Of a stretch of DNA of 64,000 nucleotides, positions 32,100-48,905 are shown one piece after another. Location of the stretch: contig JAXHLS010000006.1 of NCBI GenBank assembly GCA_034522055.1, positions 62,001 to 126,000 of the forward strand, read 5' to 3'. The stretch is from Gammaproteobacteria bacterium. GTDB taxonomy: Bacteria > Pseudomonadota > Gammaproteobacteria > JAABTG01. How positions within the stretch are numbered: position 1 is the stretch's first letter; the number at the start of each line of letters is the position of its first letter. The notes under the pieces are model-generated. The model saw nothing but the letters and a program-made list of their open reading frames with translations. It was not told where the DNA came from and ran no database searches. The position numbers and the translations under genes were made by a program.

Positions 32100-32201
32100 C
32101 TATGTTCATCGGAATCGAGGCAAGGCCATGATGAGTACTAAAGATGTCGAGGCAACGGTGACGGACAGGGAAGGCGACGGCCGCTTGGAGGAACGCAGGC
32201 G

Positions 32202-32624
32202 ATGAACAGTCTGCTCGACTGGTTCACTCGTGTCGCCGACAAGTCCGGTGCCGTAGGCGCTGTCGTCTCGACCATGGGCTGCGCCATGTGTTTTCCCGCC
32301 GCGGCCAGCATCGGTGCAGCCATCGGCCTGGGATTCCTGTCGCAATGGGAAGGCCTTTTCATCAACACGCTTTTGCCGCTGTTCGCCTGGCTCGCCCTGG
32401 GCGCCAACGCCTTAGGATGGATCAGTCACCGTCAATGGCATCGTAGCCTCGTCGGGGTGGTCGGCCCAGTGATCGTGCTGCTCAGCCTCTACCCCTGGTT
32501 CCAATACGCCTGGAGCACCTGGACGCTGTACGGCGGGCTGGCTGTGATGCTCGGCGTCGCCACCTGGGACCTGCTCGCGCCCGCCCACCGACGGTGTGGC
32601 CCCGAGGGTTGCGACGTCCCTTAG
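32202..32624 (+). CDS. merC: mercury transporter MerC
   Basis: 140 residues with four membrane segments. The paired cysteines GCAMCFPAAASIG in the first segment are the MerC metal-binding site, and RRCGPEGC near the C-terminus adds more. It moves Hg(II) into the cytoplasm for MerA. A GGAGG-type site precedes the ATG. A 24-codon leader frame (32131-32205, MSTKDVEATV...) overlaps the start by ATGA and may couple translation. Confidence 0.92.
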   Translation: MNSLLDWFTRVADKSGAVGAVVSTMGCAMCFPAAASIGAAIGLGFLSQWEGLFINTLLPLFAWLALGANALGWISHRQWHRSLVGVVGPVIVLLSLYPWFQYAWSTWTLYGGLAVMLGVATWDLLAPAHRRCGPEGCDVP

Positions 32625-32706
32625 GTCGGCCAGGAAAGGACCTGACGGCGCTCGAAGCCGGGATGCCAGAAGCTCCATTTGGCCAGCACAAGCAGAGGAA
32701 CTCATG

Positions 32707-34143
32707 ATGAACGATTGCTGCGCGGTACCACCCGGCGGTCCGGGAGCGCGCGATTACGACCTCGCCGTGCTCGGTGCCGGCTCGGCCGGCTTCTCGGCCG
32801 CCATCACCGCCTCCAATGACGGCGCGCGAGTGGCGTTGATTGGCCACGGCACGATCGGCGGCACCTGTGTCAACGTCGGCTGTGTGCCGTCGAAGATCCT
32901 GATTCGTGCCGCTGACGCCGTGCATGCCGGGAGATGGGCGGGGCGCTTCCCGGGCATCACCGGGGCCGCGAGCGTGACGGACTGGTCGGCGCTCATGGCG
33001 GCCAAAGACGCGCTCGTCACCACCCTGCGTCAGCAGAAGTACGCCGATCTGCTGCCAGGGTACGAGACCATTGACTACCTTGAGGGACAGGCCTGGTTTG
33101 CGGGCGGCGCGTTACTCGTCGACGGTGTGCCACTGCGTGCCGCCAAGACGATCATCGCTACCGGCGCCGCACCCGCGTTGCCGGACATCCCTGGTATCAA
33201 TGGAATTCCGTTCCTGACCAGCACCAGCGCGCTCGAACTGCCGGAGCGCCCCGACTCACTGCTGGTGATCGGGGGCGGCTACATCGGCTGCGAGCTGGCT
33301 CAACTCTTCGCGCGCTTGGGTTCGCAGGTGGCTCTGGTGACACGCAGCCGTCTGCTGCCGGAGGCCGAGCCGGAGGTGTCAGGCGCGCTAACCGGATACT
33401 TCCGCGACGAGGGCATTACGGTCTGGGCCGGGCTCCGGTATCGAGAGATCCAGCAGACGGCGGCAGGCGTGGCCCTGAGCATGGACGTGGATGGCCGAGC
33501 CGAACGACTCGTTGCCCGGCACGTCCTGGTGGCGACGGGCCGCAAGCCGAACACGGACGGCCTAGGGCTCATTGAAGCCGGTATCGCGCTCGATCAGCGG
33601 GGCGCGATCATCGTTGATGACCAGATGCGGACCTCCCTGGCGGGGGTCTACGCCGCCGGTGATGTCACCAACCGCGACGCCTTCGTATGCATGGCCGCGC
33701 ACGGCGCCAAGATCGCCGCGCGCAATGCGCTCACCGGTGACGATTCGTCCTATGACAATCGCGCCATGCCCTGGGTGGTGTTTACCGATCCGCAGGTTTC
33801 CGGTGTGGGCCTGACCGAGGCTGCGGCCCGTGCCGCCGGATACGACGTACTAACGTCGAGCATCACCCTCGACCAGGTGCCGCGCGCACTGGCGGCGCGC
33901 GATACGCGCGGGCTGATCAAGCTGGTGGCCGATGCGCGCACGAACGTGATCCTTGGCGGACAGATCGTGGCGCCCGAGGGTGCCGATGCCGTGCAGACGT
34001 TGGTACTCGCCATCAAGCACGGCATGACGGTGGGCGCGCTCGCGGAGACGCTTTTCCCCTATCTCACGACCGTCGAAGGGGTGAAGCTCGCCGCGTTGGG
34101 GTTCAACACCGACGTTGCCAGACTTTCCTGCTGCGCGGGGTAG
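32707..34143 (+). CDS. merA: mercuric reductase
   Basis: 478 residues, pyridine nucleotide-disulfide oxidoreductase. FAD-binding LAVLGAGSAGFSAAI, redox pair GGTCVNVGCVPSK, NAD-binding LLVIGGGYIGCELAQL, and the C-terminal vicinal pair LSCCAG required for Hg(II) delivery are all present. The N-terminal HMA (NmerA) domain is absent, leaving only MNDCCAVPP before the core. It reduces Hg(II) to Hg(0) with NADPH. ATGATG at 32704: the second ATG has better spacing to AGAGGAA. Confidence 0.93.
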   Translation: MNDCCAVPPGGPGARDYDLAVLGAGSAGFSAAITASNDGARVALIGHGTIGGTCVNVGCVPSKILIRAADAVHAGRWAGRFPGITGAASVTDWSALMAAKDALVTTLRQQKYADLLPGYETIDYLEGQAWFAGGALLVDGVPLRAAKTIIATGAAPALPDIPGINGIPFLTSTSALELPERPDSLLVIGGGYIGCELAQLFARLGSQVALVTRSRLLPEAEPEVSGALTGYFRDEGITVWAGLRYREIQQTAAGVALSMDVDGRAERLVARHVLVATGRKPNTDGLGLIEAGIALDQRGAIIVDDQMRTSLAGVYAAGDVTNRDAFVCMAAHGAKIAARNALTGDDSSYDNRAMPWVVFTDPQVSGVGLTEAAARAAGYDVLTSSITLDQVPRALAARDTRGLIKLVADARTNVILGGQIVAPEGADAVQTLVLAIKHGMTVGALAETLFPYLTTVEGVKLAALGFNTDVARLSCCAG

Positions 34144-34414
34144 GATCGCCAACAAGAACCCTGCACGGGGGTGATACAACTCCTCGGAATTCAGCATCCA
34201 AGGTACGACGTTTTCTTTCTGCCGATCAATGGGGCAAAAGTGCCGTCGTTGCTGGGTTTGCGCGTTCCCACCCCTATCCGGGAACGGTTTTGGCCGGGAA
34301 CGCTGGAAACTCGCGCCGGCCTTAGGTTTTGCGTTCCCGCCCGGCGCTGCGTTTCCGGTTGGGAGCCGGGAAGCCGGGAACCGATGCCTCCTACGGGAAT
34401 GCTCATCCCTGGTC

Positions 34415-35020
34415 CTACCGGCCCGCGCTCGCGCGCTTCAGGTGTCCGGTGACGAAGGAGGCTTGGCCACTGGCCATGGGTCCATCGGGCACGTCCAGCC
34501 ACTTCACGAGTTTTGAGCCGTCGACCATGGCCATGATCAGTTCCTCGCGGTCGAGCAGGGTGCCCACCCAGTCAGCCAGGCGGTGCTTGCCGATGCCGTG
34601 GAAGGCTTCCGGCAGTTCGTGCCGACGCTCATAGACGCCGTTGCCGCCGGTCTTGGTGTAGGGCTTGCCCTCGGCGGCGGCCCGCGCGATTGCGGTCTTG
34701 AGGTCGGGCAGCAGATCGACGGCGGTCTGCCGGGCGCGGACCAGGGCCTCGCTGCGATCGACCAGCAAGCCACGGCTGCCGCGCAGGAAGGTGCTCATCC
34801 GCAGATTGGCGCGGCCGTTGGCCTTGACCATGCCGCCCATCACCACGCGGCCGCGCTCGAAGGGTTCGCCCAGCACCTTGCAAAGGGGGTCACCTCTCGG
34901 GCAAGTGCCAGCAGCAGGAAGGACTTGCCGACGCGCTGCATGAGCCTGCTGTGGTTCCAGCGCAATCCGCTGCCACTGGACTGGATCGAGCAGCGGCGGG
35001 TGACCGACGGGTTCGATGCG
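34415..35020 (-). pseudogene. frameshifted gene of unknown function, probably from an integrative element
   Basis: The longest intact part (34415-34880) reads FERGRVVMGGMVKANGRANL, LLVDRSEALVRARQTAVDLL, GGNGVYERRHELPEAFHGIG and LVKWLDVPDGPMASG. Upstream the coherent protein changes frame twice: at a C-run near 34893 (between LLLALAREVTP and LCKVLGEP) and near 34945 (between QWQRIALEPQQ and RLMQRVGKS). It therefore encodes no single product. No family was recognised with confidence; position in the island suggests mobile-element origin. Confidence 0.5.
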
Positions 35021-35358
35021 TAGTGGTTTGACCGCGAATCGGTGGGCATGGCTGACCACGAAAAGGCCGCGCCAAGTCCTTGTAAATGCGGGCTTCGACG
35101 CCGCGACTACCCGCAGGGCAAACAGAGGAAAGAGACTGGACTGGCCGGGAAACGGGGCATTTCGTCCCATCCAAGCGCGGTGCCACCCGCAGGGCAAACG
35201 GCCAGAACGCCGCGCCACGCGGGGATTTCAGGCAAGAAAAAGGGCCCGGAGATTATCCGAACCCTTCAATTATGGTGGCCGAAAGGGAAGATGAAGTCTC
35301 GTTCGGAAGGATGCGGATTCCTGCGGTAACGTGAGGGTTCCTGCGAATCCGTGCGGCC

Positions 35359-36336
35359 TCATGCCTCGGTCTTCATCGGTTCCCGGAACAGATGGCCGGG
35401 CACCCACCAGAGATAGAGCACCATGCCGAATAATTCCACCAACGACTGGAAGACGATCACGACCACGGTGGTCTCCCAGCCGGCCGGCAGCGCCAGCGCG
35501 AATGGCAGCACGACGAATGAGTTGCGGGTGCCTAGGCTGAAGGCAAGGGTCCGACCGGCGTCCATCGGCAATCGCAGCCAGCGAGCGAGCCCACGCGCCA
35601 TCAGTGCAGCAATCAGCAGAAAGCCGACGAACACCGGAAGCACGGCCAGCAGGACCAGCCCGGCATCGAGCACCGTGCCGACTTGTGCGCTGGCGACCAG
35701 GAACACCACCGCCGCCAGCAGCGGTACCGGCCACCAGCCGAAGCGATCGCGCCAGACGGCCCGTTCAGGCCGGGCCTCGACCCAGCGCTCGGAGAGCGCG
35801 GCAGCCACCAGCGGCAGCCCGATCAACAAGAGCGCGGCGGGCAGCATTTCCTCGGTCTTCAGCGTCGTGCTGAGATCGGCTGCCGGCAGCATCAGCCAGA
35901 GGTAGACCGGCAACAGCGCCAGTTGCAGCAGCAGGTTGAGCGGCGTGACCGCGATCGCCCGCGCGGTGTTGCCCCGGCCGAGTTGAGTGAACGTGATGAA
36001 CCAGTCGGTGCAGGGGACCAGCAATACCAACAGGACGCCGAAGTGCAGCGCCGGATCGTCCGGTAGCCATTGCAGGAGCAGCCACACCAGCAGCGGGATG
36101 AGCACGAAGTTGCCGAGCAGAATGGCCAGCACGAAGCGCCGATCGCCGAAGGCATCGCGCACGTGCAGCAAAGGCACCTGCACGAATGTGGCGTAAAGCA
36201 GCAATGCCAGCACTGGCCACAACAAGGCCTCAAAGCGCGGGCCGATCCCGGGTACCGCGCTGCCCAGCAACAGTCCGCAGACAATGGCAGCGAGGTAGAT
36301 CCAGACCTGACGGCGTTCGAGGGTCAGGCGGTCCAT
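35359..36336 (-). CDS. arsenic-resistance/bile acid:sodium symporter superfamily transporter (ACR3-like)
   Basis: 325 residues, about ten hydrophobic segments. The motif LVPCTDWFITFTQLGRGNTA with its conserved Pro-Cys-Thr, and TRNSFVVLPFALALP, are characteristic of the BART superfamily including ACR3 arsenite exporters. No arsR or arsC lies beside it, so substrate assignment as arsenite is likely but unproven. It sits beside the mer operon in the same island segment. Confidence 0.8.
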   Translation of the reverse strand: MDRLTLERRQVWIYLAAIVCGLLLGSAVPGIGPRFEALLWPVLALLLYATFVQVPLLHVRDAFGDRRFVLAILLGNFVLIPLLVWLLLQWLPDDPALHFGVLLVLLVPCTDWFITFTQLGRGNTARAIAVTPLNLLLQLALLPVYLWLMLPAADLSTTLKTEEMLPAALLLIGLPLVAAALSERWVEARPERAVWRDRFGWWPVPLLAAVVFLVASAQVGTVLDAGLVLLAVLPVFVGFLLIAALMARGLARWLRLPMDAGRTLAFSLGTRNSFVVLPFALALPAGWETTVVVIVFQSLVELFGMVLYLWWVPGHLFREPMKTEA

Positions 36337-36454
36337 CGGCTAGCGTCACGGATGATGGTCGGCGACGCCCCGGCGGACGCGCGGTGTGTGGCGTTCAACT
36401 GACACCCTCCGCAGGAAAATAAGGTGGCCAACCGCCAGGGCAACCGGCGCGCCA

Positions 36455-36961
36455 CTATTTGCTCAACATGGCCTTGAGATCCTTGAGCATCAGAAACAGG
36501 TGATACGGATCGGTCGGGCTGGGCTCGAATTCCCACGATTCGTACCAGTGCCGCGCCACATCGTCCTTGGCATGCACCAGCAGGCAGCGAATACCGGCGA
36601 TGTCGGCAGCCTGCGCCGTGCGCAGCAGTGCGTCCTTGAGCAAGGCCTGGCCCAGCCCCTTGCGCTGATGCTCCTTGTCCACCGCGAGCCGGGCCAGGAT
36701 CATGACCGGCACCGGGTGACGCGCCAGCCCCTTCATCACTCTTGAGGGCACGACTTCGGGATCGACACTGCCGACGGCCAGGCTGTAGAAGCCGACCACC
36801 ACCTCACCTTGGCAGCAGACGTAGGTCTGCGCGCTGTTGGCCTTCTGGTTGACGAGCGCGTAGCGCTGCAGAAACTGGTTTAGGGCTGCCTGGCCGCAGT
36901 CGAAAGCATCGACCTGATCCGTTGCGGCCAGCTTGCGAACGGGTGCGTAACCACTGCTCAA
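36455..36961 (-). CDS. GNAT acetyltransferase toxin (TacT-like)
   Basis: 168 residues. FDCGQAALNQFLQRYALVNQ at the N-terminus and the acetyl-CoA site ILARLAVDKEHQRKGLGQAL match the TacT class that acetylates aminoacyl-tRNA and blocks translation; HWYESWEFEPSPTDPYHLFL closes the fold. It overlaps the DUF1778 antitoxin by 4 bases, in the expected order. Confidence 0.9.
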   Translation of the reverse strand: MSSGYAPVRKLAATDQVDAFDCGQAALNQFLQRYALVNQKANSAQTYVCCQGEVVVGFYSLAVGSVDPEVVPSRVMKGLARHPVPVMILARLAVDKEHQRKGLGQALLKDALLRTAQAADIAGIRCLLVHAKDDVARHWYESWEFEPSPTDPYHLFLMLKDLKAMLSK

Positions 36962-37236
36962 TCAAGCACTCCGGGTTCACGCAGCAACTTCTTCATGCGA
37001 GGCTTGGCTGTGACCGGCCGATCCAGCGCTTCCTGAAACGCCTGCCACTGCGTCTCGTCCAGCACGAACTGGCGACGATCCGCTAGCGTTTGCGCTGCCG
37101 CCGTCACGCCTGCGTCGAGCAGGAACTCGCTGACGTTCTTGTGGCAGGCGCGTGCGGCTTCTTGCAGCAGCTGCTTGACCGGCGTGCTTGCACGAACGTC
37201 AATGCGTTCAGTCTTGGAAAGATTCAGGGTGCTCAT
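36958..37236 (-). CDS. DUF1778 antitoxin (TacA-like)
   Basis: 92 residues. Ribbon-helix-helix core KTERIDVRASTPVKQLLQEA and NVSEFLLDAGVTAAAQTLAD, then the toxin-wrapping tail DETQWQAFQEALDRP. The start at 37236 follows GGAGGGGCACC. The pair probably autoregulates. Confidence 0.9.
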   Translation of the reverse strand: MSTLNLSKTERIDVRASTPVKQLLQEAARACHKNVSEFLLDAGVTAAAQTLADRRQFVLDETQWQAFQEALDRPVTAKPRMKKLLREPGVLD

Positions 37237-37670
37237 GGTGCCCCTCCGGATTTTGGATGCTCTCATTGTATTGTCCGGACGATGTCCTGACAAGTGATTT
37301 CTCGTCTGCCCTCAGCCATGCACCTGCATCCATCCGTGTTGCAATGTGTCGGTACTGGTCGATAACTGCCGACAAAACGCAACGACGGTGTTTCCCTCGC
37401 CACCCCATGCTGCAATCCAACCACTTGATTGGTCTGCGCGTAACATGTGGATTTACAAGGCGCACGATTCAGCCGTTTGCGGACTTCGGGCCATTCGTGG
37501 CGAGCGACGTTGGAGCGAGGAATCGCCAGGAGAGAGCGGAATGTGGGCCGGAATGGCCAATTCGGGCGGCTACCGAAGTCCGCAGGCTTCCGCAGGAACC
37601 CCCAACAACCGCGGGAACTGGCGCAAACAGACAAGAAAAAACCCCAACCGAGAACGGTTGGGGTTTCAAT
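37237..37670. other. intergenic region, probable island-end remnant
   Basis: About 430 bases with no gene. 37350-37390 (GTCGGTACTGGTCGATAACT...) resembles the AbiEi upstream region at 42536-42575, suggesting a lost abiE-type locus. A strong hairpin ends the interval. Confidence 0.4.
37639..37666. terminator. bidirectional hairpin terminator
   Basis: Stem AAACCCCAACCG / CGGTTGGGGTTT with AGAA loop, flanked by A-run and T-run. It sits just downstream (in ssrA sense) of att-like copy B, as a former ssrA terminator would. Confidence 0.75.
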
Positions 37671-37757
37671 ATTGATGGAGGCGGCGACAATCACATTACC
37701 TTGTAAAGCAATGGCTTAAAATGCGAAAGTTTCGAAATGCCCCCGAAAATACCCCCA
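37671..37757. repeat. ssrA-type att-like repeat, copy B
   Basis: ATTGATGGAGGCGGCGACAA, then CTTAAAATGCGAAAG and the paired CCCCC boxes ATGCCCCCGAAAATACCCCC. Same layout as copies A, C and D. Confidence 0.75.
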
Positions 37758-37846
37758 CGCTACCCGTGTTAGGAATTGTGAACTTGAGATAGCCAATCTG
37801 GCTTGCCGTCGTTCCCAAGAGTGGTCCTTTGCGCGGCCCCATGCGT

Positions 37847-38179
37847 TCATGCCGCCCGGTTGCCCAACTCGCTGAGTTTCTCCAGCGTATCGGGAAACTT
37901 CCTCACCATCAGTATCAATGCCGCGGCCTGGGCATTGGGCCGCGCTCGACCTTGCTCCCAGTTCTCCAGGGTACGTGTCGATACGCGCAGGCGGCGGGCA
38001 AACACGGCACGGGAGACGTGCATACGTTCGCGCGTGTCGCGGATGAGATCCGCGTCCACGTCGAGCGGGGGTAGGTCCTCGACCTCATGCGAACGCAGGG
38101 TGATCTTTCCCTCGCGCTGCTGCTGCATGGCATCGACGCCTTCCATCAGTTCATCGAACAACTTGCGCTTTTGTTTCAT
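37847..38179 (-). CDS. higA: HigA-like XRE antitoxin
   Basis: 110 residues. The C-terminal helix-turn-helix reads LIRDTRERMHVSRAVFARRL and RVSTRTLENWEQGRARP, with an N-terminal toxin-binding part. It overlaps the toxin gene by 4 bases (toxin first, the HigBA order). Confidence 0.87.
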   Translation of the reverse strand: MKQKRKLFDELMEGVDAMQQQREGKITLRSHEVEDLPPLDVDADLIRDTRERMHVSRAVFARRLRVSTRTLENWEQGRARPNAQAAALILMVRKFPDTLEKLSELGNRAA

Positions 38180-38496
38180 GACTTTCGTCTCCCAGCCTCC
38201 AACTCGGCCTGGATGGTTTTCTTCAATACTTTCTTCTCTTCGGTCGTCAGGTCGGCGGGTTCATCCTTGTCATAAAGAGTGAAGAACCAGATCTGGCGAT
38301 CGGCCGTCAGATAGTAGTAGATGACCCTCAATCCACCTCGCTTGCCTTTGCCGCGACGGGCGTCTTCCCAACGAACCTTGCGAAACCCGCCGGTGCCGGG
38401 CATCACGTCACCCAGTTCCGGATTCTCCATCAACGCGCGCTGCAATTCGCGGTAGCTCTCGTCGGTTAGATAGTCTCCGAGGAGGCGCGTGAACAA
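38176..38496 (-). CDS. higB: HigB/RelE-type toxin
   Basis: 106 residues. FTRLLGDYLTDESYRELQRA, GTGGFRKVRWEDARRGKGKR and GGLRVIYYYLTADRQIWFFT fit the HigB-1/RelE mRNA interferase type. The TTG at 38496 is the only standard codon near the expected start; homologues begin a few residues earlier (VFLETPLFTRLL is in frame just upstream), so a non-standard CTG start is possible. Confidence 0.82.
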   Translation of the reverse strand: MFTRLLGDYLTDESYRELQRALMENPELGDVMPGTGGFRKVRWEDARRGKGKRGGLRVIYYYLTADRQIWFFTLYDKDEPADLTTEEKKVLKKTIQAELEAGRRKS

Positions 38497-38532
38497 AGGG
38501 GTTTCCAGGAAAACCAGTTTCTTTGGCGAAGT

Positions 38533-38553
38533 ATACGCAAGTTGCGTATACGT
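38533..38553. promoter_or_regulatory. HigBA operator palindrome
   Basis: Perfect dyad GTATACGCAA / TTGCGTATAC around a central G, 37 bases before higB and directly at the stop codon of the primase-helicase gene. Likely autoregulatory site. Confidence 0.75.
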
Positions 38554-40914
38554 TCAAGCCGAGGGTTCCGCGATGCGGTAGCCCATCGCGCGGTAGCCGC
38601 GCTGGCGTTTCTCCCACATTCGGAGCAATGCGGGATGGCTGGCGTCGACGAAATCGATGATCCGAACGTCGGTCTTGTTGGCGTGTTCCCGATGCAAGCG
38701 GCCGGCGTACTGCTGCAATGTGCCTTTCCAGGATATCGGCATGGCCAGGACCAAAGTGTCGAGTGGGGGATGGTCAAAGCCTTCCCCGACGAGTCTCCCG
38801 GTTGCGAGTAGGACCCGCGGTGAGTCGGGCGCCAGTGCATCGAGTTCGGCGATCAGATTCGCACGCTGCTTTTTCGACATGCGTCCGTGCAGCACGAAGG
38901 GTTCCAGATTGTGTTCATCCATCGAGCGCTTGATGTTGTCGAGATGATCGGTGCGTTCGGTCAGCACCAGTACCTTGCGACCGTCTTCGACGGCACATCT
39001 CGCCTCATCGGCAATCGCGGCTGTGCGTTCTTGGTCCTCGGCCAACGTCCGGAATATGTCTTGAATCCCGGCGTCGTCTGGTATTGACGTCGGTTGGGAA
39101 AGGGTTCGCGGAACAACTTCGAGATCATGCGGCGCGCTGGCCGGCGATGCCGCCGTATGTCGGATCGGCCCACACTGCATGAAGATAATCGGCTGTTGAC
39201 CGTCCCTTCGGATCGGTGTTGCGGTGAGTCCAAGGATGTAGCGTGCTTTTACACGCTTGAGGATGGCGTCGAACGAGACTGCGCCGACATGATGACACTC
39301 GTCCACAATCACCTGACCGTAGTCCTCGACCAGCGGATCAATCTCGCTCTTGCGTGAAAGCGACTGCATCACGGCGATGTCGATCTTGCCCGTGGGTCTG
39401 CGCCTACCACCGCCGATGATGCCGACGACCCCTTTTCCAATGCCGAGGAACGCGTTCAAACGTTGCTGCCATTGCCTAAGCAATTCCGTTCGATGCACCA
39501 GGATCAGCGTGTTGACGCGACGACGGGCAATGATGGCGGCCCCTGTGACCGTCTTGCCGAACGCGGTCGGTGCGCAGAGTACGCCGATATCGTGAGGCAG
39601 CATCGCGGCAACGGCGCCTTCCTGATCTGGCCGCAAGGTTCCGGCGAACTCCACGTCGACAGGCATGCCGTCTATTCGTTCGTCATGTATGTCGCAGCGT
39701 ATGCCGTTGGTTCGCAGCAGTTCCATTGCGGCGTCCAGGCAGCCGCGCAGAAGACCGATGTGTTGGGGGAAGTTTTCAGCACAGCCGATGACTCGTGGCT
39801 TGTCCCAAACCGACATGCGCATGGCCTGCGCCCGGTAGAACTCCGGGTTCTGAAAGGCCGCAAGGCGAATGAGGCGGTTGGTCAGTGGTTGAGTCAGTTG
39901 TGCCTTCTCGAAATAAACGAGGTTCGCCAAGGTGATACTTAGTGCCTGAGGTAATGGTCCGAGTAGCGATCCATTGTTCGGGGCCGGACGTCTCCAAGGC
40001 GTTGCGAGGTCCTCGTCGTCGATGAACGTGACGTCGAGCGGGTGCATGGGTCCGGTGGCCCGCAAGATCGCCGCCTCGATATCCAGCGGTGGAATCGACT
40101 CGATAGATGCCAGGAAGGCCCATTGATCGGGATGCGCTATGAGGGCGTCATCGACGAAAACGCTGTGCCCGGCGTCGCGGGGCTTCTTCTGCAGGGGCAG
40201 GGCAATCAGATTGCCGACCCCCCCCTTGGGCATGGTGTCCTGGTTTGGAAAAAGCCGGTCGTAAGAGGTCAGGCTCAGTTGCCGGGTACGGCTGCAGGCG
40301 TGGCTGATGATGGCCGTACCCAAACGCCTGGCATCGCGCGCCGGCACCGCAGTCGTGAAGAAGATCCATGCATGCGCCCCGTTGCCCGAGCGCGATATCT
40401 CCAGTGCGACGGGCACATCCAACTCACGGCAGGATTCAACGAAGGCTTTGGCGTCCTCGCGCCATTCCGCCTTGTCGAAGTCGACCGCGAGAAAATAGCA
40501 GGTGTCGTCCGGAAGGAGAGGGTAGACCCCGATCGTCTTCTCGCCGGCAAGGTGGCTGTAGACGACCGCATCCGTTACGGGTATCAGCGAACGATTGCTG
40601 CAAGCTGCGCATTTGATCCGTGGCTTCTCGCAGATACCGGGGCGCCACTCGTTGGCGCACGCCGGGGCATAGCCTGACCTGCCGGTAGTCGCGCTGTTCC
40701 AGCGCACCGGATACACATCGGTTCGACCCCGGAACAGGCGCCGAAACAGCGCAACCTTTTCCGCTGTCGAGCGGGTTGATGGCTCGGGTGGTGGTGCGGA
40801 TGGGGTGTTTGGCGCCGGATTGTGCCGCCAATCTATCTGGTGAGATTCGAGCAGGGCGATCAGGCGCGCATTTTCGGCTCGTAACCTTGTCAGCTCATCG
40901 GATTCGTTAGACAT
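38554..40914 (-). CDS. AEP-primase/SF2-helicase protein (TOTE conflict-system type)
   Basis: 786 residues. N-terminal leucine-rich helix (ELTRLRAENARLIALLESHQ), a region starting VALFRRLFRGRTDVYPVRW with a Cys motif (IKCAACSN), and an archaeo-eukaryotic primase core: YFLAVDFDKAEW (metal-binding D.D) and LEISRSGNGAHAWIFF (sxH-type motif). From about residue 420 an SF2 helicase: LCAPTAFGKTVTGAAIIARR, VIVDECHHVGA, GLTATPIRRDG, then TGRLVGEGFDHPPLDTLVLA and QYAGRLHRE. No separate nuclease domain is visible. It begins 17 bases after the AbiEii stop, so it seems part of the abiE operon. Such proteins are annotated as TOTE conflict systems, presumed anti-phage or anti-mobile-element. Confidence 0.85.
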   Translation of the reverse strand: MSNESDELTRLRAENARLIALLESHQIDWRHNPAPNTPSAPPPEPSTRSTAEKVALFRRLFRGRTDVYPVRWNSATTGRSGYAPACANEWRPGICEKPRIKCAACSNRSLIPVTDAVVYSHLAGEKTIGVYPLLPDDTCYFLAVDFDKAEWREDAKAFVESCRELDVPVALEISRSGNGAHAWIFFTTAVPARDARRLGTAIISHACSRTRQLSLTSYDRLFPNQDTMPKGGVGNLIALPLQKKPRDAGHSVFVDDALIAHPDQWAFLASIESIPPLDIEAAILRATGPMHPLDVTFIDDEDLATPWRRPAPNNGSLLGPLPQALSITLANLVYFEKAQLTQPLTNRLIRLAAFQNPEFYRAQAMRMSVWDKPRVIGCAENFPQHIGLLRGCLDAAMELLRTNGIRCDIHDERIDGMPVDVEFAGTLRPDQEGAVAAMLPHDIGVLCAPTAFGKTVTGAAIIARRRVNTLILVHRTELLRQWQQRLNAFLGIGKGVVGIIGGGRRRPTGKIDIAVMQSLSRKSEIDPLVEDYGQVIVDECHHVGAVSFDAILKRVKARYILGLTATPIRRDGQQPIIFMQCGPIRHTAASPASAPHDLEVVPRTLSQPTSIPDDAGIQDIFRTLAEDQERTAAIADEARCAVEDGRKVLVLTERTDHLDNIKRSMDEHNLEPFVLHGRMSKKQRANLIAELDALAPDSPRVLLATGRLVGEGFDHPPLDTLVLAMPISWKGTLQQYAGRLHREHANKTDVRIIDFVDASHPALLRMWEKRQRGYRAMGYRIAEPSA

Positions 40915-40931
40915 CGAGCCAGTTCACTTTT

Positions 40932-41846
40932 TCAGCCCGCTGCTGGAGCCCAGGGGCCACCAGCCGGCCAGAGTTTCGGGAAGTAGATGTCAGCGTCCGC
41001 TGCAGCGATTGCAGGAAGGAGGAAATCCCGAAGCGCTGCCACAAGCACCTCGAGTTCAAGCGCTTCGAGTCGGTTCTTCCCAAGAAACGCCTGCCACTGC
41101 GTCTGCTTCTGCGGGTCTTGTGCGAATTCGTCGGTCAGGCCAAAGGGGACGCCTGGAGGCAACTCTGTCTTGCGGCGATCGAAGGTCGCCCGGATCGCGC
41201 GTCGCAGGGTGTCGCCGTCGAACTCTGTGTGGTGGGCCAGTATCCAGAGATCGAAAAAATCCTTCATGCGGCTGTTGGCGATACCGAGCGTGGCGATTGC
41301 CTCCAGCTTTTCCGCCACCACGGTATAGCGCGGATAGACACGCAACTTCGGCGCATCGAAATCCGGGAGCATCACGGGGTACTGGACCTCCACCGGCCCC
41401 GGCGTGACGGCATCGCCGAAACCGATGTCGATCTGGATCGGGCAACGCGCGCCGTCGATCAAGCCGAGCAAGATAATGCGTACGCCGGCGTAGTTGGCGT
41501 CCTTGCGAATCTCTGCCGCCTGGATTGTGTCCGGTCTGAACGTCACCCCGTCCTCGGTGTCCATCATGCAGACGTCCCTGAAGATAGTTTCGAGGTGAGG
41601 CAACTCGCCCGAGCCAAGACCCAGGAAATCCGCGTCACGGGTGGGGCGATGTGGAATGTCGAACCACAGGTCGAACAGCAGCGCCCCTTTCAGCAGGAAC
41701 TGATCGGCGTGGGGGGTGATGCTGAGCCGGTACAGCAGGCGTTCGAGGGCATAGCGGGTCAAGATGAGATTGAAGTCCTGCCGGGTCTCGCGAGCGCGGT
41801 TGAGCAGGCGGGCCCGCACGGAAGCCGCCAAGTTTCGTCCGTTCAT
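40932..41846 (-). CDS. abiEii: AbiEii/AbiGii-family nucleotidyltransferase toxin
   Basis: 304 residues from the ATG at 41846 (frame open to 41897). Nucleotidyltransferase core FLLKGALLFDLWFDIPHRPT with RDADFLGLG supplying the DxD metal site, then CPIQIDIGFGDAVTPGPVEV and YTVVAEKLEAIATLG. The type IV toxin of the AbiE abortive-infection system modifies tRNA/NTP targets. The antitoxin precedes it by 17-67 bases depending on start. Confidence 0.9.
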   Translation of the reverse strand: MNGRNLAASVRARLLNRARETRQDFNLILTRYALERLLYRLSITPHADQFLLKGALLFDLWFDIPHRPTRDADFLGLGSGELPHLETIFRDVCMMDTEDGVTFRPDTIQAAEIRKDANYAGVRIILLGLIDGARCPIQIDIGFGDAVTPGPVEVQYPVMLPDFDAPKLRVYPRYTVVAEKLEAIATLGIANSRMKDFFDLWILAHHTEFDGDTLRRAIRATFDRRKTELPPGVPFGLTDEFAQDPQKQTQWQAFLGKNRLEALELEVLVAALRDFLLPAIAAADADIYFPKLWPAGGPWAPAAG

Positions 41847-41913
41847 GGCGCACATCCGTGTGCGCCACCCTTCGGGCAGTTTCGCTGTGCAAAACATTCA
41901 TCCTGATGTTTTG

Positions 41914-42513
41914 TCATGACAGGCTTTCCATGTACGGGCGCATCACGTTGGCCACCCGGCAGAGCGCGGCGTAGTGCCAGAGCTCGTCCATGCTGACGCG
42001 TTTGGCACGCCATGCCTCCTGTAGCGCCTCGAGTGCGACATCGAGGCCGATTTTGTTACGGAACTTGAAGCAGTCAGCCACCGTGCGAGCGACACTGGTC
42101 ACGCGCACCGGCACGCCATCGATGACATGGTCCTCGACGCCAACGGTCAGTGCCTCGCCTGAGAGGCGCACCATGCGTAGTGGGGGATAGTCGATCTTTG
42201 GCGGACGTGCCTTGTTGGGGATGGCCAGCCAGACCTCGAACGGCGACTGCGTCGTGAGGTCGTGGAAGCGCAGCGCCGACAGCAGGCAGACGATGGCATA
42301 CGGGTGTTTGCGCGCCACCTCGGCCAAGGCGTTGTGTTCCGAGACCAGTCGATCCGGAAGTGCGTACAGGCCACGTCCGACGCGCTGGAGCCGTCCTTGT
42401 CGCACCAGCCGCGTGAGGGCAACAGTGGGCAGTCCGCGCTCAGTCAGATCGAGTGGTCGGATGAGGCCGCGCTCTGCGGCGAGATCCAGGATGGCTTTAT
42501 GAGAAATGCCCAT
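41914..42513 (-). CDS. abiEi: AbiEi-type antitoxin/repressor
   Basis: 199 residues from the ATG at 42513. N-terminal winged helix (LTERGLPTVALTRLVRQGRL, QRVGRGLYALP), then the C-terminal antitoxin domain (LLSALRFHDLTTQSPFEVWL, SVARTVADCFKFRNKIGLDV). AbiEi represses its own operon by binding inverted repeats; one is seen just upstream. Confidence 0.9.
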   Translation of the reverse strand: MGISHKAILDLAAERGLIRPLDLTERGLPTVALTRLVRQGRLQRVGRGLYALPDRLVSEHNALAEVARKHPYAIVCLLSALRFHDLTTQSPFEVWLAIPNKARPPKIDYPPLRMVRLSGEALTVGVEDHVIDGVPVRVTSVARTVADCFKFRNKIGLDVALEALQEAWRAKRVSMDELWHYAALCRVANVMRPYMESLS

Positions 42514-42966
42514 GTGGCCATGGTGTTGTGAAATGCCGGTAATAGTCAATAACTACCGACAAAAAACAACAGCATTCGTCGCTGCACTCTGGTCGGCAGG
42601 CGATCGCCGGCCGGCTTCCGGCGTCGGATGGGGGTATTTTGGATGCGGGCGCGAAAGTGTCCCTAAAAATACCCCCAGATTGAGTTGTTAGGGGAAGGTG
42701 GGATTCGAGAAGCGCAGGTAACAGGATTTCGCTCGCCCAGGACCCGAAAGCAACGAAAACGCTTTGAATCAGGCCGAATCTTCGGCCGATCGGGAATTGA
42801 ACTCAGAATTATCGTTATTAGTTGTAGATGGCTATAAAAACCCGCGCATATCTGGCGAAGGATTGATTGCCAGGCCAACCAGTCGCTGAGCCGGCTGGCG
42901 GGCGGCCGCGAGCAACCGGTGACAAGAGTGCCGGAATCGGGTAGATGAAGCGGGGCCGTTGAGACA
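42514..42966. other. intergenic region: abiE operator, CCCCC boxes, dispersed repeat
   Basis: 42537-42558 is an imperfect palindrome (CGGTAATAGT / AACTACCG) before abiEi, the likely operator. 42632-42677 holds inverted GGGGGTATTTT and AAAATACCCCC, resembling the boxes of the ssrA att-like repeats. 42822-42906 is the second copy of the ~85-bp repeat at 29175. Confidence 0.55.
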
Positions 42967-43096
42967 GGTGCGATACCGGGTCTAATTGACTTGGCGGTCG
43001 ATCCCGGTATCGCACCCCGGGCCGTGCAGAGCACGAGCCCAAACACTATTTCTCGTTTTCCCCTGACAATCAAGTCCTCATCGGCCTGGATCGCCG

Positions 43097-43558
43097 ATGG
43101 AGAACTCTGCACGCCTGTACAACTGCGCCCGTTGTCATCGTCAGGTGATGATCTGCAGTGGCTGTGACCGCGGCAACATCTATTGCCCTGAGGGGTGTGC
43201 GCAGGTGGCACGAAGCGCGTCTCTGCGGGCCGCCGGCTGGCGCTACCAGCAGAGCCGCCAGGGCCGGCACAAGCATGCCGAGCGGCAACGCCGCTACCGG
43301 GCGAGAAGGCAGAAAGTGACGCATCAGGGTTCCCCGGCCCCGCCCCCTCATGATCCACTACCCCCCGTTCCGGCGAGGCCGGCTGGCCGCCGCGGTGCGG
43401 ATGGCGCGCCGATGATGGCGCCCATTCGCTGCCACTTCTGCGGCCGTGAGTGCGGACCTTTCCTGCGTACCGGCCCGCTTCATCGCGCCACCGCCGCTGC
43501 TGCGCTTGGAACAGTCACCCGACAGGGGCCACCAGGCGCCCGGGCTCAGCCCCCTTGA
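43097..43558 (+). CDS. IS21-associated small zinc-ribbon-like protein
   Basis: Up to 153 residues. The first ~75 contain [25 protein letters not shown] and a basic stretch ([16 protein letters not shown]), a zinc-ribbon/DNA-binding look. The remaining Pro/Arg-rich part overlaps the istA leader and may not be coding. It lies between the IS left end and istA, so it is likely a passenger or regulatory gene of this IS21 subgroup. Confidence 0.55.
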
Positions 43559-43574
43559 GCCGGCCGGCCACGAG

Positions 43575-45104
43575 ATGAGGAGAAACGCATTGGCCATCAG
43601 CAAAGAACAAGAGGCGCAGATCCTGCGCTATCACTACGTCGAGAAGTGGCGGGTGGGCACCATTGCCAGCCAGTTGGGCGTACACCACAACGTCGTCAAT
43701 CGGGTGCTCTCCCAGGCCGGCATGCCGAAGGTCGAGCGGGCTGCGCAGCCGTCGATGATCGATCCTTATCTGCCGTTCATCACCGACACCCTGGCGCAGT
43801 TCCCCACGCTCACCGCCAGCCGCCTCTACGGCATGGTGCGTGAACGGGGCTACCCCGGCGGCCCCGACCACTTCCGCCATCAGCTCGCCTGTTACCGGCC
43901 ACGCCCCCGGCCCGAGGCCTTTCTGCGCCTGAAGACCCTGCCCGGCGACCAGGGACAGATCGACTGGGGCCATTTCGGCAAGCTCACCATCGGCCGCGCA
44001 ACCCATGCCCTGATGGCCTTTGTCATGGTGCTCAGCTACTCCCGGCGCATTTTTTTGCGCTTCTTCCTCGGTGCCAAGATGGCCAACTTCCTGCGGGGCC
44101 ACGAGGCGGCCTTCACTGCCTGGAACGGCCTGCCCAAGGTCCTGCTCTACGACAACCTCAAAAGCGCCGTGCTGGAGCGCCAGGGTGAGGCCATCCGCTT
44201 CCATCCCACCTTGCTCGAGTTCGCCGCCCACTACCGCTTTGAGCCCCGTCCGGTGGCGGTGGCCCGGGGCAACGAGAAGGGGCGGGTGGAGCGCGCCATC
44301 CGCACGATACGCGATAATTTCTGGCCGGCCCGCCAATGGACCGACATCGATGACCTCAACGCCCAGGCCGAGGCCTGGTGCAACGGCTGGGCCATGGACC
44401 GGCCCTGCCCGGAGGACCGTGCCCTCTCGGTGCGCCAGGCCTTCGAGCAGGAGCCCCTGCTGGCGCTGCCCGATAACCCCTATCCCACCGACGAGCGGGT
44501 CGAGGTCCACATCGGCAAGACCCCTTACGCGCGCTTCGAGGGCAACGACTACAGCGTGCCCCACACCCATGTGCGGCGCACCCTCACCGTCTCGGCCTCA
44601 CCCACCGAGGTGCGGATCCTCGACGGCGGAGACGTCATCGCCCGCCACCCGCGCAGCTACGACAAGGGCCGGCAGATCGAACAGCCGGAACACATCGAGG
44701 CACTGGTCCAGCTCAAACGCCAGGCCCGACATCATCGCGGCCAGGACCACCTGGCCCAGGCCGCACCGGCCAGCCGGCAGTTACTGATACAGGCCGCTGA
44801 GCGTGGCGACAACCTCGGCGCCATCACCGCCGCCCTGCTGCGCCTCCTCGATGCCTACGGCGCCCCCGAGCTGGAAGCGGCCATCCAGGAGAGCCTGGCC
44901 CACGGGGTGGCTCACCCCAACGGCGTGCGCATCGCCCTGCAGCGTAGGCGCGAGGCGAGAAACCAGCCGCCCCGGGTGGGAGTGCGCATCGACCACGCGC
45001 GCGCCAGGGGGCTGGTGGTACGCACCCATGATCTGGGCGGCTACGACGCCTTGCAGTCCACCCCGCCCGAAACCGAAGACGACGCCCAGGAGGAGCCCCA
45101 ATGA
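43575..45104 (+). CDS. istA: IS21 transposase
   Basis: 509 residues. Helix-turn-helix ([20 protein letters not shown]), then the DDE integrase core: [24 protein letters not shown] and [13 protein letters not shown]. The C-terminal beta-barrel and tail are complete. It overlaps istB by 4 bases. No frameshift. Confidence 0.93.
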
Positions 45105-45868
45105 TCCCTAACCCATCCCTGAAAGAACGGGCCACGGCCCTCAAGCTCCATGGCCTGCTGAGCCATTGGGAGGAGCACGCCGACGATGGCTGGGTCGAGT
45201 CCCTGATCCAGTGGGAAGAGGAGGAACGCGCCCACCGCAGCCTCGAGCGGCGCATGAAAGGGGCAAGGCTGGGCCGCTTCAAACCCCTGGCCGACTTCGA
45301 TTGGGGCTGGCCCGGCCGCTGCGACCGGGAACTCGTCAGTGAGCTGATGCGCCTCGACTTCCTCACCGAGGCGGTCAATATCATCCTGGTGGGACCCAAC
45401 GGGGTCGGCAAATCCACCCTGGCCCGCAACATCGCCCATCAAGCGGTGCTGGCCGGCCACAGCGTCCTCTTTACCAGCGCCGGCCAGATGCTCAATGACT
45501 TGGCCGCCCAGGACGGCGACAGCGCCCTCAAGCGGCGCCTCGCCCGCTACGCCCGCCCTCAACTGCTAGCGGTCGACGAGGTGGGGTATCTCGCCTACTC
45601 CAATCGCCATGCCGATCTGCTGTTCGAGATCGTCTCCCGCCGCTACGAGGAGAAATCCACCCTGGTCACCACCAACCGACCCTTCGCCGAATGGGGTGAA
45701 GTCTTTCCCAACGCCTCCTGCGTGGTCTCCCTCGTGGACCGGCTGGTACACCGCTCCGAGATCCTCACCATCGAAGGTGAATCCTACCGGCTCAAGGAGG
45801 CCAAGGAGCGACAGCAGCAACAGGCGCAGCGGCGCCAATCCGCAGCCAAATCCAACAAAGGAGCCTAA
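45101..45868 (+). CDS. istB: IS21 helper ATPase
   Basis: 255 residues, AAA+ of the IstB/DnaC type: Walker [19 protein letters not shown], Walker [13 protein letters not shown], sensor [13 protein letters not shown], and arginine finger region [10 protein letters not shown]. It assembles on target DNA to direct IstA. C-terminal Gln/Arg-rich tail. Confidence 0.93.
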
Positions 45869-45870
45869 CC

Positions 45871-46047
45871 ATGACCCATCCCCCGATACCGGACGACTGG
45901 ACGCCAGAGCAGGCATTAACGATCTATGACTTTATCGACGAACTCCGCGATGCCATCTGGAGCCGATACGATCGGCAGCTGGTCGAACTCATGCAACAAG
46001 ACCGCATAACGACCTTTGAAGTCGACGACGATGACTTGACCTTCTGA
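45871..46047 (+). CDS. small acidic protein downstream of istB
   Basis: 58 residues, MTHPPIPDDWTPEQALTIYD to TTFEVDDDDLTF, too short for usual length cut-offs. AAAGGAG lies 8 bases upstream and it starts 2 bases after istB. Similar short proteins accompany some IS21 elements; role unknown. Confidence 0.65.
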   Translation: MTHPPIPDDWTPEQALTIYDFIDELRDAIWSRYDRQLVELMQQDRITTFEVDDDDLTF

Positions 46048-46210
46048 GCCGACTCTTAAGCCCACCCCGGCGGCGTGACCTGGCTTGAGTCGAGGCGACC
46101 TATCCGCGCTGAGGCCGCGTCACGCCGCCCGAACCCGCGACTGCGACCTTCGCCATTTATGCGCGGATTTACTCAGCCGCTAACATTAGTCAATGGCTTA
46201 CGAGTTAGAA

Positions 46211-46297
46211 ATTGGTGGAGGCGGCGACAATCACATTGCTTTAAAAATCAATTGCTTAAAATGCGAAACGCCGATTGTGCCCCCACAGATACCCCCA
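46211..46297. repeat. ssrA-type att-like repeat, copy C
   Basis: ATTGGTGGAGGCGGCGACAA, then TTGCTTAAAATGCGAAACGC and boxes TGCCCCCACAGATACCCCC. The ATTGGTGGAGGCGGCG part is identical to the sequence at the ssrA 3' end. Confidence 0.8.
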
Positions 46298-46456
46298 AAT
46301 CGATTCGGCTGATTAACTGCCTGAAATCAGACCGGTTTTATCGCCCCATCGGTGCTCGCAAGGCCTCGCAAAACGGCAGCCGCTATCGTGTGCAAGCAAT
46401 GCCGTCATGTGCTAGCATTGGTTCAGCTTTGGCCAAGTCAAGTTCTGGAGTCAACT

Positions 46457-46690
46457 ATGCCCAGTTTGAGCGTCAGAAAACTCGACGACGATACGCTGTC
46501 GCGCTTGAGGATCCGCGCCGCGCAACATGGTGTGTCGATGGAGGAAGAGGCGCGACGCATTCTAAGGGATGCGGTTAGCCCACCGGATCACCTTGGTGAT
46601 CTCGCGCTTCGGATATTTGGTCCGAAGCACGGTATCGATCTACAACTACCTGAAAGGACACCACATGAGCCTCTGGACCTGTCCGAATGA
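46457..46690 (+). CDS. FitA-like ribbon-helix-helix antitoxin
   Basis: 77 residues. LSVRKLDDDTLSRLRIRAAQ and GVSMEEEARRILRDAV are the FitA-type ribbon-helix-helix with the conserved GxSxEEEAR; the C-terminus (HGIDLQLPERTPHEPLDL) binds the toxin. Overlaps the toxin by 4 bases; CTGGAG upstream. Confidence 0.88.
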   Translation: MPSLSVRKLDDDTLSRLRIRAAQHGVSMEEEARRILRDAVSPPDHLGDLALRIFGPKHGIDLQLPERTPHEPLDLSE

Positions 46691-47112
46691 TCCTTTTGGA
46701 CACGAACGTCGTTTCAGAGGTGATGAAGACACGGCCGGCGGAAGCCGTCGTAAAGTGGTTTAACGGTCAACACTCGGAGAAGCTCTACGTTTCCTCAATC
46801 ACCATCGGCGAGATTAGCTACGGGCTGCGAATCTTGCCTGATGGTAAACGCAGATCAGGGCTTCGCGAACGGTTTGAACGATTCGTCGCCCTGGCCTTCG
46901 ACCAGCGTGTACTTGCCTACGATGAATCCGCCGCCCGCATCTACGGTGACCTGATGGGCGACCGCAAGGAACTCGGGCTTCCGATGAGCGTACCCGATGG
47001 GCAGATCGCCGCAATTGCTCGTCTCAACCACTTGGCGGTGGCGACTCGGAATGTCGCCGACTTTGAGAACTGTGGTATCGATGTAGTGAATCCTTTTGCG
47101 TCCGCCCTTTGA
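46687..47112 (+). CDS. FitB/VapC-type PIN-domain toxin
   Basis: 141 residues. Acidic PIN residues in ILLDTNVVSEVM, ITIGEISYGLRIL and SVPDGQIAAIARLN, then LAVATRNVADFENCGIDVVN. Complete. The pair fills a segment of about 1.05 kb bounded by att-like copies C and D with nothing else in it. Confidence 0.92.
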   Translation: MILLDTNVVSEVMKTRPAEAVVKWFNGQHSEKLYVSSITIGEISYGLRILPDGKRRSGLRERFERFVALAFDQRVLAYDESAARIYGDLMGDRKELGLPMSVPDGQIAAIARLNHLAVATRNVADFENCGIDVVNPFASAL

Positions 47113-47219
47113 TGTGCAGACCTGTTCCGTGGCGGAGTTTGCAGCATTTGTCGGAGTACGCGAGGAAGCTGGAATTCCCACACGATAAGTTTGTAACTCC
47201 TTATTTTTACGAAATAAAA

Positions 47220-47241
47220 AGGCCGTGATATATCACGGCCT
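47220..47241. terminator. perfect palindrome terminator
   Basis: AGGCCGTGATA/TATCACGGCCT preceded by AAAAA and followed by AT. It lies on the ssrA-downstream side of copy D, like the hairpin next to copy B. Confidence 0.7.
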
Positions 47242-47254
47242 ATCTGGGGTTATC

Positions 47255-47339
47255 TGGTGGAGGCGGCGACAATCACATTGCCTTATCAGTCAATGACTTA
47301 AAATGCAAAACGCCGATTATGCCCCCAAAAATACCCCCC
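47255..47339. repeat. ssrA-type att-like repeat, copy D
   Basis: TGGTGGAGGCGGCGACAATC, then CTTAAAATGCAAAACGCCG and boxes ATGCCCCCAAAAATACCCCC. Nearest to ssrA and very similar to copy C. Confidence 0.8.
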
Positions 47340-47462
47340 GTATGATCTGCTATGAACCGATAGGAGATGAGATGGTAATCGGCGCCTCGTGGGCGAGTAC
47401 TCCACAAACCGATTGATCAAGTCTTCACTCCAGCTGTCGAAAGAGGATCTTTGGTACAGATA

Positions 47463-47489
47463 TGGCACTAAGTGCTACACTTCGTGCCA
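47463..47489. promoter_or_regulatory. toxin-antitoxin operator palindrome
   Basis: 27-base dyad: arms TGGCAC.AAGTG and CACTT.GTGCCA around CTA with one mismatch per arm, ending 5 bases before the toxin ATG. Likely autoregulation by the downstream XRE antitoxin. Confidence 0.7.
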
Positions 47490-47494
47490 ATACG

Positions 47495-47872
47495 ATGCGT
47501 ATTTTCAAGACCAAGTGGGTCCATCGCTGGGCCGCCAAGGAAGGGCTAAACGACGCCAGCCTTCGTGCGGCAGTCGATGAGATGCGGCGTGGCTTGGTCG
47601 ATGCCAATCTGGGCGGGTACGTGTTCAAGAAACGCGTGGCGCTGCCTGGAAGAGGCAAGAGCGGAAGTGTACGGACTCTGCTTGCGTTCAAGCAGGGCCA
47701 TCACGTGTTCTTCGTCTATGGCTTCGCCAAGAGTGTGCGCGCCAACATTTCCGATACCGAACTGAAGGCGCTTCGGCAATTGGCGGACGAACTGCTCAAT
47801 TACGGAGACATGCGGATAGACAAAGCGCTTGGGGCGAAAGAACTGATCGAGGTAATGACAGATGACGAATAA
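47495..47872 (+). CDS. RelE/HigB-type toxin
   Basis: 125 residues from the ATG at 47495. FKTKWVHRWAAKEGLNDASL, GGYVFKKRVALPGRGKSGSV, then RTLLAFKQGHHVFFVYGFAK and SDTELKALRQLADELL fit the HigB-2/YgiU-like RelE branch. An upstream ATG would place the operator inside the gene, so 47495 is preferred. Overlaps the antitoxin by 11 bases. Confidence 0.87.
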   Translation: MRIFKTKWVHRWAAKEGLNDASLRAAVDEMRRGLVDANLGGYVFKKRVALPGRGKSGSVRTLLAFKQGHHVFFVYGFAKSVRANISDTELKALRQLADELLNYGDMRIDKALGAKELIEVMTDDE

Positions 47873-48170
47873 GACCATCCTGGATGCTATGCACGAGACG
47901 GCGAAAGGCTTGCACAAGGCGGGCGCTATGGATGCGACCACAATGCGTGAGTTCGACGCCTTGTGTCTGCCACCTGTCAAACACTACAGTGCCGGGCAGA
48001 TCAAGAAGCTGCGGCTGCGCTATAAAGCGAGCCAGGCTGTGTTCGCCGCATTCTTGAACACCAGCCCGTCTACCGTTCAGAAATGGGAGCAGGGTAAAAA
48101 ACAACCGAACGGTCCATCGCTGAAGCTGCTCAATATCGTCGATCAGAAAGGTCTCGACGCGCTTGGCTGA
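47862..48170 (+). CDS. HigA-like XRE antitoxin
   Basis: 102 residues. Toxin-binding N-terminus and helix-turn-helix IKKLRLRYKASQAVFAAFLN with STVQKWEQGKKQPNGPSLKL. Completes a toxin-antitoxin unit that is the only content between att-like copy D and ssrA. Confidence 0.9.
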   Translation: MTNKTILDAMHETAKGLHKAGAMDATTMREFDALCLPPVKHYSAGQIKKLRLRYKASQAVFAAFLNTSPSTVQKWEQGKKQPNGPSLKLLNIVDQKGLDALG

Positions 48171-48535
48171 CGCAAGCTCGGCAAGCTGACTGGTGCCAAC
48201 ATGGTCTTAGTTAAAGTCCGTAGCTGACAGCCAAATGTCGTCGTGGTGGCTGCTTGGGGGTATTTTCAGCCCTGCTCATTTCATACCCCCCATTTGTACC
48301 CCCATTTCGGTGTTGCAGGAACAACGTTCCCTGGCGAACGGGGCAGTGTGGCACCGAGAGGCTACGATGAACTCGGAAAACCAGGAGAGGGCGATGAGCG
48401 GCGAATAAAGTTAGGATTTCAGTCGCTTGGAACGGTGGAGTGTGATTCCCGCATGCACAATCACACTCGGCGGTTTTATTATTCAAGTGATGCTTTACAA
48501 AGGCAGTATAAGCCTATGAAAAATAACGTGAATAT
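48171..48535. other. intergenic region downstream of ssrA, with hairpin and CCCCC boxes
   Basis: 48255-48313 carries GGGGGTATTTT and two CCCCC boxes like those of the att-like repeats. A hairpin at 48438-48468 (GAGTGTGATT / AATCACACTC) followed by GGTTTTATT could terminate the antitoxin transcript. No gene. Confidence 0.5.
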
Positions 48536-48905
48536 TGGTGGAGGCGGCGGGAATCGAACCCGCGTCCGCAAGCCTTCCGCCGTCGGCTCTACATGCTTAT
48601 TCCGTCAATTGATTTAACTGGCCGCTACCCGACGGACAGGGAAGACGGACGGCGATTCCGGTAGGTTTTAACGGCTTGGCCCCGGACGAGCCTTACCGCG
48701 ATCCCATGAGAGTCGACCCCTGAGTGCCCTTGCGGGCCCGGACGCATAGGCACGGCTCCGGTCAGAGGCTAGCCGGGTTAAGCGGCTAGAGCGTAGTTGT
48801 CGTCGTTCGCAACTAAGTTGTTTGCAGCACAAGATTTACGAGGCCTGCTACGTCCTCGGCATGCACCTCGGGTTTTAGCACCCACGTCGAATCCAGGTCG
48901 CCCCC
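48536..48905 (-). ncRNA. ssrA: tmRNA
   Basis: Complete 370-nt transfer-messenger RNA. The 5' end GGGGGCGACCTGGATTCGAC pairs with the 3' end CGCCTCCACCA, giving a 7-bp acceptor stem with encoded CCA; the T-arm GGTTCGATTCC is present. The tag reading frame (48810-48778) encodes ANDDNYALAA followed by TAA. It rescues stalled ribosomes with SmpB. Its 3' end is the apparent integration target for the repeats at 29.9, 37.7, 46.2 and 47.3 kb. Confidence 0.97.

Follow-up and report, generated by a model that had tools for sequence, protein, structure and literature searches.

The window analysed here, a 64,000-nt stretch of contig JAXHLS010000006.1 from a Gammaproteobacteria bacterium whose own positions serve as coordinates throughout, carries three intact, co-oriented genes on its minus strand: abiEi and abiEii, encoding the antitoxin and toxin of an AbiE type IV toxin-antitoxin system, and a gene for a primase fused to a helicase (hereafter PH, primase-helicase) of the AEP-TOTE type. 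Reading the open reading frames in the window bore out the identities proposed in an initial annotation: Pfam recognised all three genes and PADLOC agreed with it on AbiEi and AbiEii; NCBIfam gave only related sub-threshold matches for the three-gene set. The distance from the abiEii stop to the PH ATG was measured as 17 nt, as the initial annotation had it, and the abiEi-abiEii gap is 67 nt when the start codon shared with relatives is used, an in-frame upstream ATG at 41897 being able to shorten it.

The pair resembles the AbiE systems of Streptococcus agalactiae and Lactococcus (PMC3985639) in its abiEi-abiEii order, with a winged helix-turn-helix (wHTH) antitoxin directly upstream of a nucleotidyltransferase (NTase), in NTase motifs I, II and IV, and in an inverted-repeat operator close to abiEi. 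These motifs have been defined for AbiEii as hG[G/S/A] (I), x15-DhD with an Arg (II) and +DxxD (IV) (PMC3985639), and the window protein reads KGA-x15-DAD including the Arg (KGALLFDLWFDIPHRPTRDAD) for motifs I and II and KDFFD for motif IV; its nearest solved structure is AbiGII (9hlo, E=3e-30). Both AbiEi and AbiEii are under purifying selection, with ratios of non-synonymous to synonymous substitution (dN/dS) of 0.15 for abiEi, against the relative L107, and 0.17 for abiEii. Systems of this type can block phage growth, AbiEi neutralising the toxicity of AbiEii without contact. Whereas AbiE has been described as bicistronic, a third gene here follows abiEii within those 17 bp, and no terminator-like site was found on the minus strand between abiEi, abiEii and PH. 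Judged from sequence, the three genes are laid out like an operon following one AbiEi operator, and we infer that they are co-transcribed.

The putative operator is a palindrome just before abiEi, whose arms (42520-42541 and 42554-42575) are 73% complementary. Its position, as initially annotated, is real, and the nearest AbiE pairs, at loci with no PH in the sequence examined, share it in sequence and place (GTCGGTA-N-TACCGAC, set around a TTGAC box); taken alone, however, it was not better than shuffles of the same stretch. More distant AbiE loci have different long palindromes at the same place, and these do exceed shuffled sequence. An autoregulatory AbiEi operator would be expected to show this combination of conservation among relatives and equal placement in distant loci, and such autoregulation has been shown experimentally in S. 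agalactiae (PMC3985639). Downstream of PH, the HigBA-like pair seen in the initial annotation is present as a RelE-fold toxin followed by a helix-turn-helix (HTH) antitoxin; it comes with its own perfect palindrome, a predicted operator, and is for that reason probably a separate autoregulated unit. Rfam revealed no RNA elements in the region.

The AEP-TOTE domain of PH (PF22548) scored 334.6 bits against a cut-off of 27 and is joined by ResIII, DEAD and Helicase_C matches in Pfam. All AEP residues are present (D145-F-D147, SGxGxH181 and a four-cysteine cluster), as are all motifs of a superfamily 2 (SF2) helicase (GKT 453, DECHH 538, TATP 564 and GRLHR 738). Across 93 homologues DFD, SGxGxH, GKT, DECHH, TATP and GRxHR are conserved at 97-100%, variable x positions aside, and D145, D147, H181, K454, D538 and E539 at no less than 99% each. 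With a dN/dS of 0.13 against its closest relative, L003, PH has the signature of an intact enzyme under purifying selection. It has what characterises the AEP-TOTE family, a name taken from Pfam: a whole AEP domain, all catalytic residues and an SF2 helicase fusion; the neighbours of PH vary, its partner in the window being AbiE. The primase half resembles the CRISPR-associated primase-polymerase (CAPP; 7nqd, PADLOC PrimPol), which has a related AEP domain, but PH is fused to an XPB-like helicase and no CRISPR-Cas genes were noticed nearby. In sequence, motifs and fold the helicase half is similar to XPB and RadD, although these two serve in housekeeping repair and lack an AEP domain; the predicted model of PH is of moderate confidence (mean predicted local distance difference test 74.6, predicted template modelling score 0.58), and only the helicase match was taken from it. 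PH occurs in 32 of 369 genomes in an even sample of the same class and on 104 plasmid records; it also travels as a passenger of Tn3 and presumably has an anti-phage or anti-mobile-element function. A phage origin was rejected, as no phage record matched PH. On Escherichia albertii plasmids (L138, NZ_CP070285.2) the gene is a passenger flanked on one side by a recombinase-family gene and on the other by a Tn3-family transposase.

The neighbourhood of PH was surveyed at 80 loci from a scan of 84,980 species genomes, selected blind to AbiE, and at 23 loci added from the even sample, giving a combined set of 103 centred on relatives of the window PH. As a rule PH closes an operon: a same-strand gene lies within 200 bp of it at 81 of the 103 loci, with a median gap of 10 bp. 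AbiEii is immediately upstream at seven of these 81 (L025, L026, L034, L076, L092, L097 and L098), whereas among the 1287 other flanking genes it occurs 6 times (Fisher 2.5e-6). L039 and L055 join the list under a weaker Pfam criterion, and at L052 the end of abiEii falls at the contig edge. A check with a curated library made AbiEii the commonest Pfam family among the upstream genes of PH (9/74). As a control, 78 genes drawn at random from operon-upstream positions at these loci included a single AbiEii (L104), and no toxin-antitoxin family was present among control families with two or more members. On a PH tree built by quick search the AbiE label changed at least five times, also when well-supported branches alone were counted, and AbiE-PH joins appear to have arisen several times independently. 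The AbiE subfamilies differ among joins: the window pair is of the AbiEi_4 type and has relatives in L025, L076 and L092, the AbiEi_1 type occurs in L026 and L098, and L039 has a distant NTase pair. The initial annotation had made its case depend on recurrence elsewhere, and the linkage does recur, in unrelated genomes and with different AbiE subfamilies. In one PH clade (L097, L026, L034, L039, L098 and L071) all members except L071 have an AbiEii-type gene before PH (5/6), and L025 and L076 have an identical AbiE-PH spacing of 27 bp; L025, which has the gene order of the window, belongs to the cultured strain Limnohabitans sp. 2KL-51.

Some of these loci have further features. A SNF2-type helicase gene, possibly encoding an extra subunit of the PH module, lies directly downstream of PH in L026 (5057-7537), L097 (5382-7853, overlapping PH by 4 bp) and L104 (8269-10776, 15 bp behind PH). 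The L076 contig has two PH genes, the AbiE-linked one with an in-frame TGA and an intact one behind a Fic gene.

AbiE is one of many partners. The upstream place is held most often by DUF6155 (20 loci), by a YgjP metallopeptidase in 7, and elsewhere by HigA-type HTH, ParE/RelE, MqsA, PemK/MazF, Fic, HipA, SLFN_AlbA or McrC genes, with type I restriction genes often farther upstream; toxin-antitoxin genes, from many families, account for roughly one in three of the upstream partners. Conversely, the AbiEii subtype of the window has no PH behind it in 29 of 31 genomes, the exceptions being the window genome and one other. PH and AbiE are therefore separate modules, each found without the other, that have been joined repeatedly, and an exclusive partnership as a general rule is ruled out by the many upstream partners and the PH-less AbiE genomes. 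The special relationship suggested at first, in which AbiE guards the helicase or is triggered by it, is not supported by these data either, PH standing equally close behind many toxin-antitoxin and restriction modules and AbiE being absent in the closest PH relative. The DUF6155-like protein (181 residues; L042:1780-2325 and 19 further loci) is encoded by a gene that often overlaps the PH start by 8 or 17 bp. These overlaps had raised the idea that AbiE replaced an ancestral DUF6155 gene, which was rejected, the flanks of L003 and of a second PH copy in the window having no DUF6155 similarity. The window also has type I restriction-modification genes (20132-29123; HsdM, HsdS-like and HsdR) ending in a YgjP-like metallopeptidase gene, a type that elsewhere is a frequent direct neighbour of PH.

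The history of the window copy can be read from that closest relative, L003, which is 88% identical in PH and comes from a metagenome-assembled genome (MAG) labelled Rhodobacteraceae. There, PH-HigBA begins 288 bp past the end of the transfer-messenger RNA (tmRNA) gene, without AbiE, and the upstream flank matches the second window copy of PH over 94 bp and the AbiE-linked copy over only 11 bp. Because L003 has PH-HigBA without AbiE and the homology ends 11 bp before the PH start, the join looks recent, the most economical explanation being that AbiE and PH were brought together in the window only recently. The core TGGTGGAGGCGGCG, which is the tmRNA 3' end, occurs four times in the 5.1 Mb genome, always within the window, and these direct repeats bound the segments as in an ssrA island (Table 1). 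AbiE-PH-HigBA shares its segment, between two such attachment-site repeats, with an IS21 element. No integrase was recognised on inspecting the predicted genes at window 12-49 kb. Other toxin-antitoxin pairs of the array (29881-48905) are RelE-HTH (47495-48170), a VapBC-like FitA/PIN pair (46352-47112) and TacA-GNAT (36455-37236), beside HigBA itself (37847-38496). An 89-nt direct repeat (88% identity, copies 13.6 kb apart) adjoins the type I restriction genes at 29175-29263 and lies upstream of abiEi at 42822-42910.

Table 1. Features of the abiE-PH locus and the surrounding ssrA array (window coordinates).
Feature	Position	Strand	Evidence and remarks
abiEi, antitoxin/repressor, winged HTH, 199 aa	41914..42513	-	AbiEi_4 PF13338 E=2.6e-12; PADLOC AbiEi E=5.6e-87
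abiEii, nucleotidyltransferase toxin, 304 aa	40932..41846	-	PF08843 E=3e-48; in-frame ATG also at 41897
PH, AEP-TOTE primase-polymerase and XPB/RadD-like SF2 helicase, 786 aa	38554..40914	-	PF22548 E=3.8e-100, PF04851, PF00271
abiEii-PH junction, 17 nt	40915..40931	-	L003 homology begins 11 bp before PH ATG (~40925)
abiE operator-like palindrome before abiEi, 22-nt arms and 12-nt spacer	42520..42575	.	conserved in PH-less AbiE relatives L107, L109, L114
Perfect 21-bp palindrome GTATACGCAAGTTGCGTATAC between PH and higB, directly after PH stop	38531..38551	.	in L003 with one mismatch
higB-like RelE-family toxin	38176..38496	-	PF06296 29.3 bits against cut-off 27; accompanies PH in L003, 92-93% identity
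higA-like HTH antitoxin	37847..38179	-	HTH_31 / HTH_3; 94.5% identity in L003
IS21-family istA/istB upstream of abiEi, oriented away	43446..45868	+	NF033546, NF038214
Second PH copy, truncated, residues 1-184, 79% identity	14640..15194	-	cut by IS110-type element 13498-14493; VapBC directly upstream 15322-15975
tmRNA (ssrA), integration target of island	48536..48905	-	
ssrA attachment-site repeat 1, TGGTGGAGGCGGCG core	47255..47338	+	
ssrA attachment-site repeat 2, upper end of AbiE-PH-HigBA segment	46213..46296	+	
ssrA attachment-site repeat 3, lower end of AbiE-PH-HigBA segment	37673..37756	+	matching copy L003:3675-3773 behind higA
ssrA attachment-site repeat 4, 70% identity	29881..29964	+	

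The reading we favour, and regard as rather probable, is that PH is a mobile module that has come under the control of the abiE promoter and is stabilised by the toxin-antitoxin pair. PH would be a self-sufficient defence module that processes nucleic acids by means of a primase-polymerase joined to an XPB-like DNA translocase, and that has repeatedly come to occupy the final position in toxin-antitoxin and restriction operons. In the window genome PH and HigBA would have been carried as a cassette at the ssrA site and recently joined, at a point 11 bp ahead of the PH start codon, to the 3' end of an abiE operon. The abiE promoter would then transcribe PH, with AbiEi predicted to repress the whole abiEi-abiEii-PH transcript; loss of repression upon stress or infection would raise the arresting NTase toxin and PH together, and the AbiE addiction module would stabilise the linked cassette. 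What the analysis established is gene identity, intact motifs, purifying selection, conservation of the operator, recurrence, the exchange of partners and the recent date of the junction; co-transcription, repression of PH by AbiEi and the immune role of PH are inferred. Several points weigh against this interpretation. No convincing Shine-Dalgarno sequence precedes PH, and a promoter for PH may lie inside abiEii. The neighbour calls and clusters come from a home-made gene caller, with many of the loci on MAG contigs. At 13 further loci from the phylum AbiEii was never upstream of PH, at least three having a DUF6155-like gene instead, a result compatible with a rate near 8% without confirming it.

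That toxin-antitoxin modules merely prevent loss of the cassette, PH being an addicted passenger with no regulatory coupling, we consider somewhat unlikely, even though toxin-antitoxin genes of many families make up about a third of its upstream partners, HigBA stands behind PH with its own operator and AbiE is known to stabilise plasmids (PMC3985639); addiction needs no co-orientation, no 3' position and no gaps of some 10 bp, yet these are the rule here. Passive clustering, with both AbiE and PH as common defence-island cargo whose adjacency is functionally meaningless, would suit the window, where islets bearing several toxin-antitoxin pairs have accumulated at ssrA, and a join that is recent. 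It is nevertheless unlikely, given that AbiEii is concentrated at the immediate upstream same-strand place and not elsewhere in the islands, and that the arrangement has arisen repeatedly on the PH tree. A dedicated three-gene system, in which PH releases AbiEii on detecting damaged or invading DNA, or in which AbiEii guards PH by arresting the cell when PH is blocked, could draw on the five or more independent joins, on the identical spacing in L025 and L076, and on the clade where five of the six members have retained an AbiEii-type gene before PH, with a SNF2-type helicase after PH in L026 and L097. Against it stand the unrelated modules that fill the same upstream place, the 29 of 31 genomes in which the AbiEii subtype has no PH behind it, and L003 with its PH-HigBA free of AbiE, and we regard it as distinctly unlikely; such guarding could apply chiefly to the clade keeping the order, and not as a general rule. 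A broader and fairly unlikely reading is that many unrelated toxin-antitoxin families act as interchangeable sensor-switches, the antitoxin repressing the downstream PH and releasing PH and toxin on infection, which would make toxin-antitoxin plus PH a general three-gene immune architecture. AbiE-PH would in that case, by the same rather low expectation, be one recurrent form, with one clade adding the SNF2-type helicase.

Toxin-antitoxin pairs coupled to defence systems are known in which the module is adjacent to, and possibly controls, a nucleic-acid-targeting effector; PH differs in pairing with many toxin-antitoxin families and not with one dedicated partner. No description of a TOTE system, or of AEP-helicases linked to toxin-antitoxin genes, was found in the literature searched, subscription journals being mostly outside its reach, and this absence is weak evidence of novelty. 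PH is widespread, with intact enzymatic motifs, and its place behind toxin-antitoxin operons offers a testable handle on its function. If PH rides on such operons, its expression should be controlled by the antitoxin and the two should share an anti-phage or anti-plasmid phenotype, and this may explain why island toxin-antitoxin pairs so often precede a large 'DEAD/DEAH helicase' gene.

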